DNA of 37,688 nt from Pseudomonadota bacterium (lineage in GTDB: Bacteria; Oederibacteriota; Muellerivitia; Muellerivitales; Muellerivitaceae): assembly GCA_021324075.1 (NCBI GenBank), contig JAJPJW010000107.1:1-37688 (forward strand). The letters run 5' to 3'. Made by a program: the position numbers and the translations under genes. Below, one piece after another: positions 25,273 through 31,692 of the stretch (position 1 is its first letter; each line of letters starts with the position of its first letter). Below the pieces are notes generated by a model, which worked only from the letters and a program-made list of their open reading frames with translations, ran no database searches and had not been told where the DNA came from.

Positions 25273-26310
25273 ATGAAAGCCAAAGCGGGTGAAATAGAAG
25301 GTGCGGTGAAGAAGATCAAAAACCTGGGGTTCCCCTGGGAAACAGCCGATCCCTTTCTCTTTTGCGTTTACCACGTCGACAACTACCCGGCGGGCAACGA
25401 CCAATTGGGCCCCAAGGCTTCCCTCAAGGGCCGCAATATCGGCAACGACTTCGAGGGTATTGATGGTTGGCGCATGTACCACGGGGATAGGGTTCCGGGA
25501 TTCCCCCAGCACCCTCACCGGGGCTTTGAGACCGTCACGGTTGTCAGCAAGGGCATCATCGACCATTCGGATTCGCTGGGTGCCACGGCCCGTTTCGGCC
25601 ATGGCGATACCCAATGGCTCACGGCAGGTAAGGGCATCAACCACGCGGAAATGTTTCCCTTGTTGAACCCGGACGCCTCCAACCCGACCGAGTTTTTCCA
25701 GATCTGGCTTAACCTGCCCAAGGCAGGCAAGATGGTTGCGCCTTATTTTTCCATGCAATGGGGGGAAAAGATCCCCAAAGTCACGGCCGCCGACCAGGCG
25801 GGCCGGAAGACCGAAGTCACTCTCAGCGCCGGGCAATTGGGGGATGTGAAAGCCCTGCCCCCGCCGCCCGATTCCTGGGCCGCCAAGCCCGAAAGCGACC
25901 TGGCCATTTGGACCATCAAGATGGACCCCCAGGCCCGGTGGGTTTTGCCGAGGGCCAAGAAGGGAACGAACCGCACCCTTTATTTCTTTAAAGGGGAATC
26001 CATCATGATCGCGGGCGTGACGGTGAAGGTGAAGCAGGGCGTGGAGCTGGAACCGGATGTGGATGTGTTGTTGGAGAACGGCGATTCGGAGGGGGAATTA
26101 CTGCTTCTGCAAGGCCGCCCCATCGGCGAACCGGTGGCCCAGTATGGGCCCTTTGTGATGAATACGATGGGGGAAATCCAGCAGGCTTTTGAGGACTACC
26201 AACGGACACAATTCGGCGGCTGGCCTTGGAAGTCGGATGATCCGGTGCATTCGCGCGGGGAGGGCCGCTTCGCCAAGCACGCCGACGGCAAGATCGAGCA
26301 GCCGAAATAA
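25273..26310 (+). CDS. Pirin-family protein
   Basis: 345 aa. A cupin fold is indicated by the pirin motif 'FPQHPHRGFETVTVVSKG', whose two His are the first metal ligands, and 'GDTQWLTAGKGINHAEMFP', which gives the third His and the Glu. Both are intact, so a metal (usually iron) should bind. Some pirins are quercetinases or redox regulators; the function here is open. The C-terminal tail 'GGWPWKSDDPVHSRGEGRFA' is typical of longer bacterial pirins. AAGGAGA lies eight bases before ATG 25273. The marR gene follows 57 bases downstream. A damaged copy of the last ~97 bases lies at 28351-28444. Confidence 0.93.
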   Translation: MKAKAGEIEGAVKKIKNLGFPWETADPFLFCVYHVDNYPAGNDQLGPKASLKGRNIGNDFEGIDGWRMYHGDRVPGFPQHPHRGFETVTVVSKGIIDHSDSLGATARFGHGDTQWLTAGKGINHAEMFPLLNPDASNPTEFFQIWLNLPKAGKMVAPYFSMQWGEKIPKVTAADQAGRKTEVTLSAGQLGDVKALPPPPDSWAAKPESDLAIWTIKMDPQARWVLPRAKKGTNRTLYFFKGESIMIAGVTVKVKQGVELEPDVDVLLENGDSEGELLLLQGRPIGEPVAQYGPFVMNTMGEIQQAFEDYQRTQFGGWPWKSDDPVHSRGEGRFAKHADGKIEQPK

Positions 26311-26331: not shown

Positions 26332-26364
26332 TTGACAATCCCGGCAGATACATGTATATACATG
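26332..26364 (+). promoter_or_regulatory. marR promoter with overlapping palindromic operator
   Basis: TTGACA (26332-26337), a 17-base spacer and TATATA (26355-26360). The perfect palindrome CATGTATATACATG (26351-26364) covers the -10 box. A 16-base stretch including it recurs at 26836-26851. This is a good candidate for MarR autorepression. Confidence 0.75.
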
Positions 26365-26367
26365 AAT

Positions 26368-26820
26368 ATGGCGAAATACTCATCCGCTGAAAACCTCCTG
26401 CCGACCCTCCCCTGCGCATGCGCCAGCCTGCGGCGCGCGGCCCGGGCCGTCACACGGCTTTATGACAAGGAACTTTCCGGCACGGGCCTGGAGTTGGCCC
26501 AATACACCCTCATGATGGCGCTCGAATCAGCGGAAGAATTGAACCAGGCCAAACTGGCCGGGGTTTTGCTGTTGGACCAAACCACCCTCACCCGTACCCT
26601 GGCCGGACTTTTGAAGAAGGGGCTGGTCGAGGCCCGTCCCGGCGAGGACCGGCGGGAAAGGCATTTCCGGTTGAGCGCCCTGGGCCGCCGCAAATACAAG
26701 GAAGTACTCCCCCTTTGGGAAAAGGCCCAATCGCGACTTGAAAAAACCCTCCCCACCCGTGTTTGGGACCAGATGACCGGACTGCTCGATGAGGTGGCAA
26801 AAGCCGCGGCGAAGGTTTGA
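26368..26820 (+). CDS. MarR-family transcriptional regulator (likely leaderless)
   Basis: 150 aa from ATG 26368 (ATG 26362 is in frame two codons earlier). The N-terminus is PTLPCACASLRRAARAVTRL; the two Cys (C16, C18) resemble those of redox-sensing MarR/DUF24-like members with CxC near helix 1. The winged-helix region contains 'NQAKLAGVLLLDQTTLTRTL' and the wing 'RPGEDRRERHFRLSALGRRK'. The predicted transcription start is at about 26367, so the mRNA would begin at the start codon with no Shine-Dalgarno. The palindrome at its promoter and before the next gene indicates that it represses both. The ligand or oxidant sensed is unknown. Confidence 0.88.
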   Translation: MAKYSSAENLLPTLPCACASLRRAARAVTRLYDKELSGTGLELAQYTLMMALESAEELNQAKLAGVLLLDQTTLTRTLAGLLKKGLVEARPGEDRRERHFRLSALGRRKYKEVLPLWEKAQSRLEKTLPTRVWDQMTGLLDEVAKAAAKV

Positions 26821-26835
26821 TTTTTTTTGCCTTAA

Positions 26836-26852
26836 ATACATGTATATACATC
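26836..26852 (+). promoter_or_regulatory. Second MarR operator copy before the QueG-SCP2 gene
   Basis: ATACATGTATATACAT (26836-26851) is identical to 26348-26363; only the last palindrome base differs (C for G). It lies 19 bases before the ATG at 26871, with AAGGAGAAGG between. Both sites are AT-rich islands in GC-rich sequence. Confidence 0.75.
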
Positions 26853-26870
26853 TTTTAAAGGAGAAGGCTT

Positions 26871-28223
26871 ATGGCGAAATGGGAAACCCATCCGACCGTG
26901 CAGCGTTTTTACGAAAAGGCAGGCAGTCCAGCCAAACCCCCGGTTTCCCCGCCCCTGGACGCGGACTGGCTGAAGGAGGCCTGCCGGGAAGCCGGGGCGG
27001 ATGATGTGGGCTTTGTGGAACTGGGCCGGCCCGAAATGGCGGATCAAAAAAAGGAAGCCCTGGCTTTTTTCCCGCCAGCCAAGACCCTGATCAGCCTGGT
27101 TTTCAGGATGAACCGGGAAAACATCCGCACTCCCGCCCGGTCCGTGGCCAACATGGAATTCCACCACCAAACGGATGAGACGAACGATGCCGCCCGCCGG
27201 ATCGTGGGGATATTGGAAGGCCGGGGAGTGCGGGCCATCAACGCCGGGGGCGCGGGCTTCCCCATGGAAGCGGACCGCTGGGGGGCGGGCAAACTATGGG
27301 TCCTGTCCCACAAGCCGGTGGCGGTCCAGGCGGGCCTTGGGAAAATGGGCATCCACCGCAACGTCATCCATCCCCGTTTCGGCAATTTCATCGTCTTGGC
27401 GACAATCGCCATGGAAGCGGAAGTCACCCGCTATGACCGTCCCCTGGATTACAACCCCTGCCTGGAATGCAAGCTCTGCGTTTCCGCCTGTCCCACGGGC
27501 GCCATCGGCGCGGACGGCCATTTCGATTTCGCCGCCTGTTACACCCACAACTATCGGGAATTCATGGGAGGGTTCAACGATTGGGTCGAGAAGGTGACCG
27601 AAAGCAAAAGCCCCTTGGATTACCGGAAAAAAGTCACTCCGACCGAGACGGTCTCCCTGTGGCAAAGCCTATCCTACGGCGCCAACTATAAGGCGGCCTA
27701 TTGCATGGCCGTCTGCCCGGCGGGGGAGGAGGTCATCTCCCCCTTCTTGACCGGCCGGAAGGAGTTCCTCCAGGAGGTCGTCAAGCCGCTCCAGGAAAAG
27801 AAGGAAATTATTTACGTGGTTCCGGGTTCGGACGCGGAAGGTTACGTGAAGCGCCGTTTCCCGCATAAGACGGTCAAGAAAGTCGCAAACGGCCTGTCGG
27901 GCCAATATTCGATCAAGGCTTTTTTGGCCGGCATTCCCGTCGTTTTCCAAAGGGGGGCCTCCAAGGGCCTGGAAGCGGTATACCACTTCACCTTTACGGG
28001 AAAGGAGGAAGCCAAAGCCACGGTCATCATCCGCAACCAGACCCTTCAGGTGTTGGAGGGCCACCAGGAAAAAGCGGACTTGGGGGTGGTCGCCGACAGC
28101 GAAACCTGGCTTGGTTTTTTGAGAAAGGAAGCCAATCTGGTTTGGGCTTTGCTCAGGGGAAAAGTGAGGATCAAAGGTTCGCCCCGCCTGTTGCTGGCCT
28201 TTGGAAAGTGCTTCCCGTCTTAA
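26871..28223 (+). CDS. QueG-like 4Fe-4S protein fused to a C-terminal SCP2 domain
   Basis: 450 aa. Residues ~30-290 resemble epoxyqueuosine reductase QueG and the reductive-dehalogenase ferredoxin class: 'LGKMGIHRNVIHPRFGNFIVL' (shown in part, about 156-176), then CLECKLCVSACPTG, a full 4Fe-4S motif (C197, C200, C203, C207). The second cluster is incomplete in the usual pattern: only C223, C278 and C282 (CMAVCP) are seen. Residues ~345-448 look like an SCP2 sterol-carrier domain ('GLEAVYHFTFTGKEEAKATV', 'RIKGSPRLLLAFGKCF'). True QueG lacks SCP2, so this is not a tRNA-modification housekeeping gene; a redox enzyme acting on a lipophilic substrate is more likely. AAGGAGAAGG precedes ATG 26871. 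A MarR operator lies upstream. Confidence 0.85.
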   Translation: MAKWETHPTVQRFYEKAGSPAKPPVSPPLDADWLKEACREAGADDVGFVELGRPEMADQKKEALAFFPPAKTLISLVFRMNRENIRTPARSVANMEFHHQTDETNDAARRIVGILEGRGVRAINAGGAGFPMEADRWGAGKLWVLSHKPVAVQAGLGKMGIHRNVIHPRFGNFIVLATIAMEAEVTRYDRPLDYNPCLECKLCVSACPTGAIGADGHFDFAACYTHNYREFMGGFNDWVEKVTESKSPLDYRKKVTPTETVSLWQSLSYGANYKAAYCMAVCPAGEEVISPFLTGRKEFLQEVVKPLQEKKEIIYVVPGSDAEGYVKRRFPHKTVKKVANGLSGQYSIKAFLAGIPVVFQRGASKGLEAVYHFTFTGKEEAKATVIIRNQTLQVLEGHQEKADLGVVADSETWLGFLRKEANLVWALLRGKVRIKGSPRLLLAFGKCFPS

Positions 28224-28350
28224 AATCAGCTGGCATAAGACCTAGTTTGACGAAAGAGAGCTTCCGAAAGCATTGGCTCGTAAGAGTGAAAGTAAATGAT
28301 AAACCGAGATCTATAGTGGGAGGTCGAGGTTTGTCGTTGCATCCACTTCA

Positions 28351-28444
28351 GCGGCTGGTTCTGGAAGTCGGATGATCCGGTCCATTCTCGGGGCGAGGCC
28401 GCTTCGCCAAACACGCCGACGGCAAGGTTGAGCGCCCCCAATAA
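28351..28444 (+). pseudogene. Degraded copy of the pirin 3' end
   Basis: The sequence from GCGGCTGGTTCTGGAAGTCG through 'CACGCCGACGGCAAGGTTGAG' to TAA closely matches the last ~97 bases of the pirin gene (26215-26310). One base lost within GGGGCGAGGCC shifts the frame. The similarity continues into the following bases (GTACTGAATTTGACAATTAT versus GTACAAATTGTCGG...TTGACAAT), so a piece spanning the pirin end and the marR promoter was duplicated downstream. The rest of the 297-base gap 28224-28520 shows no gene. Confidence 0.85.
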
Positions 28445-28453
28445 GTACTGAAT

Positions 28454-29864: not shown

Positions 29865-30614
29865 TTAATTATTAAGACCCCAGAGTTTCGAAGCCATCTG
29901 TGAAATTAGGTTCTTAACGTTGTTATTGTCGTCTTCTAGTGCGCACAATTCGATTAATGTATTCTCGTTATATCGTGTCGTTCTACCTGGCGCATTTAAA
30001 AATCTGGCTAAAGCTTGAAATAGTTGTTTTCCTCTAATATTTAATTCATAGTTTGCCATTATTTCATTGATTGTATTGAGTCTTGGTTCTGAATATCGAT
30101 GTCTCTGCCGATAAGTTTGACATATATCTTGAATATTGAAATCACAAATTTCGTTTATGTGGCTTTCGCAAGTTGTTAACTGACCACTTCGATGTATTTC
30201 CAATTGAAAGGCGAACCACCTTCCGATTATTCCAATTAATCTTTCGAACGAGGACAATTCCTGCGGAGTTAAGAGCCTCATAACATCGGAATTTGAGAAA
30301 AGATCGTTTTCGATACAGTAACCTTGTGTAAATATTATTTCGGAAAATTGCGGCGGTATTGGTTCAAACCGCCACATGTCTTTATCGGCCAGAAAGATTA
30401 CTTTCTTGTCATCAAATTCATGTCTTCTTAAGTAAATATCCAACAATGATGGCTTCCCCGAAGTTGGTAAGATTGATACATAAAATCTAAATTGCTTTTG
30501 CCATTTTTTGACTATCAGGACATCGAAAGGGCCTTCGACAAGAATTGTGGGTAAATCGGAATGTTTTATAGCACTTATTAATTCATCAACTGTGTAAATA
30601 TCATTTTGAGGCAT
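29865..30614 (-). CDS. DUF4435/Toprim-like effector, PARIS AriB-like
   Basis: 249 aa. The DUF4435 fold is shown by 'TILVEGPFDVLIVKKWQ' (Toprim-type Glu27 and Asp31), 'VIFLADKDMW' (DxD-like D77, D79) and 'GYCIENDLFSN' (E102, D104). In the PARIS anti-phage system the second protein, AriB, is a DUF4435 Toprim nuclease held by the ATPase AriA and released when a phage anti-restriction protein is sensed; it then attacks host translation (tRNA). Here the gene starts one base after the ATPase stop (TGATATG), so the two are coupled. The sequence is strongly AT-rich compared with both flanks. Length is near that of known AriB proteins. Alternative: a different ATPase-DUF4435 pair with another trigger. 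Confidence 0.8.
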   Translation of the reverse strand: MPQNDIYTVDELISAIKHSDLPTILVEGPFDVLIVKKWQKQFRFYVSILPTSGKPSLLDIYLRRHEFDDKKVIFLADKDMWRFEPIPPQFSEIIFTQGYCIENDLFSNSDVMRLLTPQELSSFERLIGIIGRWFAFQLEIHRSGQLTTCESHINEICDFNIQDICQTYRQRHRYSEPRLNTINEIMANYELNIRGKQLFQALARFLNAPGRTTRYNENTLIELCALEDDNNNVKNLISQMASKLWGLNN

Positions 30615-30615
30615 A

Positions 30616-31692
30616 TCAGCCCCTATCAGAACTGATTTGAAATTCTTTGTCTGGATATTGAGAGTAAATAAATGGGGAATGGGTTGAGATTATGTATTGG
30701 TTTGAATTTGATTTTAAAAGTATATCGAAAAGAGATCTTTGCCAATCGACATGCAAACTTAATTCGGGCTCGTCGATAAATATCGGACAATTACTATAAA
30801 AACTTCCATAACACAAAAAGCTCAGCATCTGTTTTTCGCCGGACGATAGACGGTCAGAGTTAATTGCGTTTTTATCATCGCCAAAGATTACGCTTTCAGA
30901 AAACTTGACGCCTTTATATTTGAAAACTTCAGTCACCAGAGAAAACATTTGCAAAAAAGGCTCTCTGATGATGTCTCGCACTTCGTTGTAATTTTCAATT
31001 TTGCTTTTTATTTTGGAAATAATTTTTTTAGGAGTGTCTTTATCTTCTTCAATGAGTTTAATAATAAAAGAAAAATATTCCTGCGACTTCTCATCGGTGC
31101 TCTCTGAAATTTTTGCGAGAGTTTGAAATGTGTATTCTTTAATGTCGTCCGTAGAGATGGAGGAGATGAATTTGTGATCGTAAACACTTAATCGATCTGC
31201 GAATTCTTTCATGGAATTTCGTAATCCATCATAAACTTTACTGCGACTTCTTAGGCGATATCTTGTCGATTCCTTTTCAGCGAAACTACCTTCGATGCGT
31301 CTAAATGATGGAAAAAAAATTGAACTTTTTATTTTTTCGACGACGAGTTGATTCATTTCGTCAACAGTGTCGTCTTCTTTAGAAGGATCAAAATCCTTTT
31401 GCTTCGATTCATTAGCTTCATTGGCGGTGAACGAAATTTGAGATTTTTTCCTTCCGTCCAAAATATGATTTTTAATCGATAATTTATATTCATCTGTTTC
31501 TAGCAAAACGTCCTCAAAGTCCACTTCGGAAATAGCAAATTCAATATTTCCACTTATTAAATACCAAATCATTTTTAGCAGGTTTGTTTTCCCTGATCCG
31601 TTTTTACCTGTGAAAATATTTAAGTCTTTATGGAATTCAATTTCTTTCGTTAGTGAACCATTTAAATTAGTCACTGAAATTTTTTTAATCAT
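30616..31692 (-). CDS. ABC/OLD-type ATPase, PARIS AriA-like
   Basis: 358 aa. The Walker A is GKNGSGKTN (29-37), the ABC signature LSSGEKQ (282-288), the Walker B CPIFIDEPE (302-310) and the switch His is in STHSPF (H338); all are intact. The long charged middle (95-240) looks like a helical insertion or coiled coil, as in AAA_15/AAA_21 defence ATPases. Paired with a DUF4435 protein downstream, this is the AriA/AriB architecture, in which AriA forms a cage that stores AriB and senses phage proteins. The start is ATG 31692 with AGGA nine bases upstream. The strong AT bias of the gene and its upstream region indicates horizontal acquisition. Retron- and Septu-type ATPases share these motifs, so assignment rests on the partner gene. 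Confidence 0.82.
   Translation of the reverse strand: MIKKISVTNLNGSLTKEIEFHKDLNIFTGKNGSGKTNLLKMIWYLISGNIEFAISEVDFEDVLLETDEYKLSIKNHILDGRKKSQISFTANEANESKQKDFDPSKEDDTVDEMNQLVVEKIKSSIFFPSFRRIEGSFAEKESTRYRLRSRSKVYDGLRNSMKEFADRLSVYDHKFISSISTDDIKEYTFQTLAKISESTDEKSQEYFSFIIKLIEEDKDTPKKIISKIKSKIENYNEVRDIIREPFLQMFSLVTEVFKYKGVKFSESVIFGDDKNAINSDRLSSGEKQMLSFLCYGSFYSNCPIFIDEPELSLHVDWQRSLFDILLKSNSNQYIISTHSPFIYSQYPDKEFQISSDRG

Follow-up and report, generated by a model that had tools for sequence, protein, structure and literature searches.

Organization of the marR Locus

The window, a 37,688-nt stretch of bacterial DNA (contig JAJPJW010000107.1), carries a marR gene (26368–26820, + strand), whose proposed start is leaderless. 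It lies between a pirin gene (25273–26310) and a gene for a QueG-like Fe-S protein with a C-terminal SCP2 domain (QueG-SCP2; 26871–28223, + strand), which is its probable target and whose relatives also adjoin marR genes. The marR promoter was found where the first-pass annotation had put it, with the −35 box TTGACA at 26332–26337 and the −10 box TATATA at 26355–26360 (both + strand), separated by a 17-nt spacer. The −10 box matches the consensus at only four of six positions and lacks the final T, which is why a generic promoter scan did not list this promoter. The −10 box is covered by operator 1, the 14-bp palindrome CATGTATATACATG (26351–26364), with the core TGTATATACA at 26353–26362. As had also been claimed, an identical 16-nt copy precedes the QueG-SCP2 gene, with coordinates that proved right: ATACATGTATATACAT is present at 26348–26363 and again at 26836–26851, the latter constituting operator 2 (core at 26841–26850). 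A run of eight T residues (26821–26828, + strand) directly follows the marR stop codon and ends 12 nt before the core of operator 2, which itself begins 23 nt past the first base of the stop codon. The Shine-Dalgarno sequence of the downstream gene, AAAGGAG, is at 26857–26863 (+ strand).

These features are confirmed as first observed, and comparative data support the regulatory interpretation given to them from sequence. The operator core, with at most one mismatch, was found in the 190 nt preceding the homologous region in 34 of 57 MarR loci (shuffle mean 0.13, maximum 2), within 150 nt past the stop codon in 27 of 57 (shuffle mean 0.10, maximum 2), and inside the gene in none of the 57, although these loci are mutually related and do not represent 57 independent cases. 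Two of them, L050 and L061, had entered the set through the site itself; without them the counts are 32/55 upstream and 26/55 after the stop.

Right behind the QueG-SCP2 gene, at 28344–28448, stands a second copy of the pirin gene's 3′ end (26209–26310), 83–85% identical to it. Only these two copies exist in the whole genome, and marR and QueG-SCP2 are thus flanked by direct repeats. A promoter-like site, TTGACA-17-TATTGT, lies 3′ of the second copy. Elsewhere in the window, an ATPase and DUF4435-like gene pair (29865–31692, − strand) is a candidate anti-phage system; PADLOC comparison matched PARIS AriA with E = 5e-27 and AriB weakly (E = 1.8e-6), the DUF4435 match being below the Pfam cut-off.

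Sequence Context of the Two Operators

The two operators differ in context, one being part of a promoter and the other following a phased T-run and lacking a −35 box. Both sites are present in 27 loci (26 if L050 is excluded). Among these, a TTGACA-like box with at most one mismatch, starting 17–24 nt before the site, was found at operator 1 in 17 loci and at operator 2 in none, whereas a T-run, defined as at least six T in the eight positions −19 to −12, was found at operator 1 in none and at operator 2 in 18, compared with the 0.35 predicted from local composition. A wider search for TTGACA-like hexamers (−45 to −10) returned 23/27 for operator 1 and 7/27 for operator 2, the latter equal to the level of shuffled sequences (6.0). 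The best −35-like hexamer of operator 2 in the window is at −24, with two mismatches. Runs of at least five T, present in 15 of 30 operator-2 loci, reach to within 11.1 ± 1.0 nt of the core and begin 5.0 ± 3.7 nt from the stop codon; the T-run is centred some 15 nt ahead of the operator core. The T-run accompanies operator-2 sites at most 30 nt from the stop codon (17/21), and rarely those farther away (1/6). Seven of the nine sites away from MarR genes, inspected on both strands, had neither a −35 box nor a T-run (0/14).

Several simple explanations of the second site were discarded. The T-run is not part of the MarR recognition site, as it is absent at operator 1, and a sigma-70 promoter at operator 2 is not supported, as none of the 27 loci has a −35 box (at most one mismatch) at normal spacing. 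An intrinsic terminator behind marR was also rejected: hairpins before the T-run are not consistent across loci (mean z −0.47, 3/27 below −2, window z −1.0), and a + strand scan lists no terminator there.

Given the missing −35 box, repression at operator 2 probably acts on polymerase arriving from marR, rather than on a second standard promoter. RNA polymerase that has transcribed marR would come to a halt on the T-run, some 15 bp short of the repressor-occupied site. We tentatively suggest that operator 2 and its phased T-run might form a repressor-gated terminator, in which MarR, bound behind its own gene, would hold polymerase over the weak rU:dA hybrid so that the transcript ends. Nearly as likely is that operator 2 covers a second, unusual promoter of the QueG-SCP2 gene, with the T-run taking the role of a degenerate −35 box or of an activating element and TATATA/TATACA, inside the operator, that of the −10 box, in which case both sites would block initiation. 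The constant distance between T-run and operator fits such a promoter, as does the location of the Shine-Dalgarno sequence after operator 2. So does locus L033, a single case in which marR is divergent and no readthrough is possible, and in which TTGACA, and no T-run, is present upstream of the shared site on the QueG side. However, the same loci that have a TTGACA-like box at operator 1 (17/27) have none at operator 2, the wider search does not exceed the shuffles there, and the T-run ends at about −11, nearer to the −10 box than TTGACA boxes are. Between these two readings of nearly equal likelihood, we lean toward the roadblock.

The MarR Protein and Its Signal

The product of marR belongs to the MarR family (PF01047, 41.4 bits; cut-off 24.6), and falls short of the OhrR equivalog cut-off (NF052638, 41.3 bits versus 200). 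It groups in the tree with two acidobacterial MarRs (unstarred support 93/74). The nearest solved MarR by sequence is 4fx0/4fx4 (E = 1.5e-14), treated as MosR in PMC5823404, where experiments are cited in which an oxidant frees MosR from DNA, and where a Cys10–Cys12 disulphide is named. The N-terminal CxC motif of the window MarR corresponds to C16/C18, a numbering that the first-pass annotation had right when ATG 26368 is taken as residue 1. The motif is present in 48 of 67 aligned MarRs; the first Cys is kept in all 67 and the second is absent from 19. Its presence does not follow that of the operator, as CxC was found in 26/39 MarRs with a site of at most one mismatch and in 17/22 MarRs with at least three mismatches to the core, the latter 22 being counted among the same 67. 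No single residue of the HTH or wing that separates site-bearing from other MarRs was found in this alignment. The 22 MarRs with at least three mismatches, which count against the proposed circuit, include both same-family genes, L008 and L009.

By likeness to MosR, C16/C18 may sense redox conditions. The circuit could also operate as described with a small ligand as the signal instead of oxidation, a possibility only somewhat short of an even chance: most MarR members respond to ligands according to PMC5823404, the second Cys is missing in a number of relatives, and CxC does not follow the operator. The invariance of the first Cys argues against a ligand, as does the reported release of oxidised MosR, the nearest solved relative, from DNA, with a Cys10–Cys12 disulphide (PMC5823404).

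The Start Codon of marR

The first-pass annotation had described marR as leaderless. The lack of a Shine-Dalgarno sequence was borne out (score 2/6), but two in-frame ATGs are present, at 26362 and 26368, and only the second suits this description, since the −10 box ends at 26360 and transcription is predicted to start at about 26367. ATG 26368 is one base from the predicted +1 (offset 1). Phylogenetic footprinting backs the leaderless reading, in that the same geometry recurs with diverged relatives of this MarR. Among 24 loci with a core of at most two mismatches lying 18–23 nt behind a TTGACA-like hexamer (at most one mismatch), an in-frame start at −1 to +3 of the predicted +1 was found in 15 (14/22 without L050 and L061), with Shine-Dalgarno scores of 1–2 of 6. 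A leader with a Shine-Dalgarno sequence was found in seven loci, this variant being mostly confined to one alphaproteobacterial set, and neither type in two. Counts at other offsets averaged 1.6/24, with a largest value of 6, and the other two frames gave 0 and 2. These data indicate that a leaderless MarR gene under the TGTATATACA operator, as predicted from promoter geometry, is a recurrent arrangement.

It is unlikely that the marR mRNA is instead leadered, or read through from upstream, for example from the pirin gene, with the leaderless geometry being incidental. ATG 26368 lies 57 nt past the end of the pirin gene (26310), the scan lists no terminator in this interval, and 7/24 relatives do have a leader and a Shine-Dalgarno sequence; nonetheless, 15/24 relatives have their start at the predicted +1, all 15 with Shine-Dalgarno scores of at most 2/6. 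A different promoter register was seen at L032, L038, L066, L072, and L084, where the operator lies 11–12 or 32–34 nt behind TTGACA. L038, from the culturable relative Herpetosiphon aurantiacus, is of the leadered type.

QueG-SCP2 and the Distribution of the Operator

The downstream protein has Pfam SCP2 and Fer4 matches, and scores far under the cut-offs of both QueG (NCBIfam equivalog TIGR00276, 50.1 bits versus 200) and reductive dehalogenase (34.5 bits versus 160). Its likeness to these enzymes spans about 80–90 residues of the Fe-S region, and it differs from them by the extra SCP2 domain; a separate QueG-like gene is present in the same genome (G000:C135). Seven Cys are invariant across 17 aligned QueG-SCP2 sequences, and the predicted structure is of low confidence (mean pLDDT 66.9, pTM 0.45). 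Within the window's phylum, one genome of 45 was found to encode QueG-SCP2 (E ≤ 1e-30); the corresponding counts are 3 of 350 for the Herpetosiphon phylum and 13 of 385 for the class that includes L033 (both E ≤ 1e-60). The marR/QueG-SCP2 pair recurs in Acidobacteriota, Chloroflexota, Pseudomonadota, and Planctomycetota, and has likely spread by horizontal transfer.

Genome contigs searched with the MarR protein yielded no relative, but the QueG-SCP2 query gave 21 loci, 13 of them with an adjoining MarR gene; among the eight others, L044 and L047 start at the match itself, leaving their upstream side outside view. The core was present within two mismatches upstream of marR in all 13 loci with a MarR neighbour, and at L033, where marR is divergent, it lies in the region between both genes. 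By comparison, all 12 QueG-SCP2 loci whose fetched stretch contains no MarR gene, two near-identical plasmids included, were without a core, the best upstream matches having 3–5 mismatches. In four alphaproteobacterial loci (L100, L102, L103, and L104), the MarR gene follows QueG-SCP2 and is not preceded by a core, and the best core matches upstream of QueG-SCP2 there have 4, 2, 4, and 3 mismatches, respectively. At L102, this best match is a variant palindrome, TGCATATGCA, some 59 nt ahead of the region matching QueG-SCP2. The core is also found at MarR genes whose next gene does not match QueG-SCP2 (e.g., L050, L067, L072, L075, and L090). Among the 10 plasmid MarR records examined of 39, the exact core was upstream of MarR in three, from Sinorhizobium, Ensifer, and the archaeon Natrinema, and a core with at most one mismatch in two more. 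The archaeal record, from a plasmid of the haloarchaeon Natrinema zhouii (L118), has the exact sequence GTGTATATACAC at 1774–1785, before its MarR gene.

Within the 3.57-Mb genome, the 14-mer ACATGTATATACAT occurs exactly at two places only, operators 1 and 2. At most two mismatches gave three forward and three reverse places, resembling the reversed-pattern control (3 and 1), and the case for rarity therefore depends on the exact copies. The window itself has three operator matches with at most three mismatches, compared with 0.17 expected. The next best operator match of the genome lies within an inverted repeat at L003 (1498–1537; G000:C136), whose perfectly matching 16-bp arms, TATACATGTTTATACA / TGTATAAACATGTATA, are separated by 8 nt; the repeat precedes an AAA_16 ATPase gene. 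In Herpetosiphon, RTGTATATACAY occurs just twice in the genome, both times in the marR module; additional operator-like sites are present in other genomes, and the four sites of Dictyobacter (G046) are below its reversed control (5).

The Phd antitoxin domain of Enterococcus faecalis Phd-Doc, an unrelated regulator, is reported to bind the same 10-mer (PMC13034048), and the binder is consequently not identifiable from the site alone. It is nevertheless very improbable that some other regulator binds TGTATATACA while the adjoining MarR has different targets, for although that Phd domain and the sites away from MarR genes (those of G046 not exceeding the control) would permit it, the site accompanies the MarR gene across phyla, stands at the start of MarR genes that have no QueG-SCP2 neighbour, and is absent upstream of all 12 QueG-SCP2 genes without MarR in the stretch.

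Proposed Mechanism and Comparison with Known Systems

We propose, with a probability of roughly 75%, that marR and QueG-SCP2 constitute a self-regulated two-gene unit, in which MarR would act at operators 1 and 2 and be released by oxidation or another signal. At operator 1, a MarR dimer bound to TGTATATACA would cover the −10 box and shut off the leaderless marR promoter, probably by blocking initiation, and MarR bound to the identical operator 2 between the genes would shut off QueG-SCP2. MarR would leave both operators when its N-terminal C16/C18 pair is oxidised, in the way reported for MosR, or in response to a different signal. Autoregulation through both sites, proposed in the first-pass annotation, gains support from footprinting, but the "simple circuit" described there undersells the arrangement, as the contexts of the two sites differ. 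If operator 2 is a gated terminator, an oxidant that releases MarR would open the leaderless promoter and the readthrough gate together.

MarR autoregulation, leaderless MarR genes, Cys-based sensing, and repressor roadblocks are already known. As far as literature searches show, the TGTATATACA code for these MarRs, its association with QueG-SCP2, and a T-run at fixed distance from operator 2 are new; judged by titles and abstract openings, the matches listed contained no description of this MarR/operator pair. The proposed operator TGTATATACA, extended to approximately ATAnRTGTATATACAYnTAT, would apply to a broad group of MosR-like MarR regulators, whose own promoters and neighbouring targets would thereby become readable from sequence. 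The loci also amount to a naturally occurring collection of genes, spread over several phyla, that are controlled by an operator and apparently lack a leader.

The crtR gene of C. glutamicum and forZ of S. formicae are likewise MarR genes reported to be leaderless, with a MarR site near the promoter (PMC5401885, PMC12421854). They differ from the window marR in having other palindromes and divergent target genes, and in neither was the operator shown to cover the −10 box of the gene that is leaderless. MosR (Rv1049) of Mycobacterium tuberculosis shares with the window MarR the CxC at the start of helix 1, and its gene also adjoins an oxidoreductase-like gene, a MosR target according to PMC5823404, but the neighbour differs, being QueG-SCP2 in the window. 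SydR is described as a redox MarR as well (PMC11633110), but with another palindrome.

Bacterial roadblocks, in which a repressor (LacI, PurR, CcpA, CodY, or ArsR) within a transcription unit stops elongation, are described in PMC10310618, the available text of which makes no mention of T-runs set at a fixed distance from an operator for this purpose. That a T-run stands some 15 bp ahead of operator 2, and none at the matching site in the promoter, raises the question of whether bacteria have dedicated repressor-dependent terminators or incidental roadblocks only. Another parallel may be offered by the roadblock terminators of Pol I (Reb1/Nsi1), in which a T-rich element is located about 15 bp before the bound protein (PMC12366685), a distance similar to that of the T-run centre from the operator 2 core. 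According to the same source, an RNA hairpin is also needed, and a Pol I complex roadblocked on the T-rich sequence alone stays intact, whereas hairpins at operator 2 are not consistent. The proposed blocker at operator 2 differs further in being a releasable bacterial repressor, and the gated terminator, if true, would be a switchable bacterial counterpart of the Pol I roadblock terminators, present in this MarR group across several phyla.
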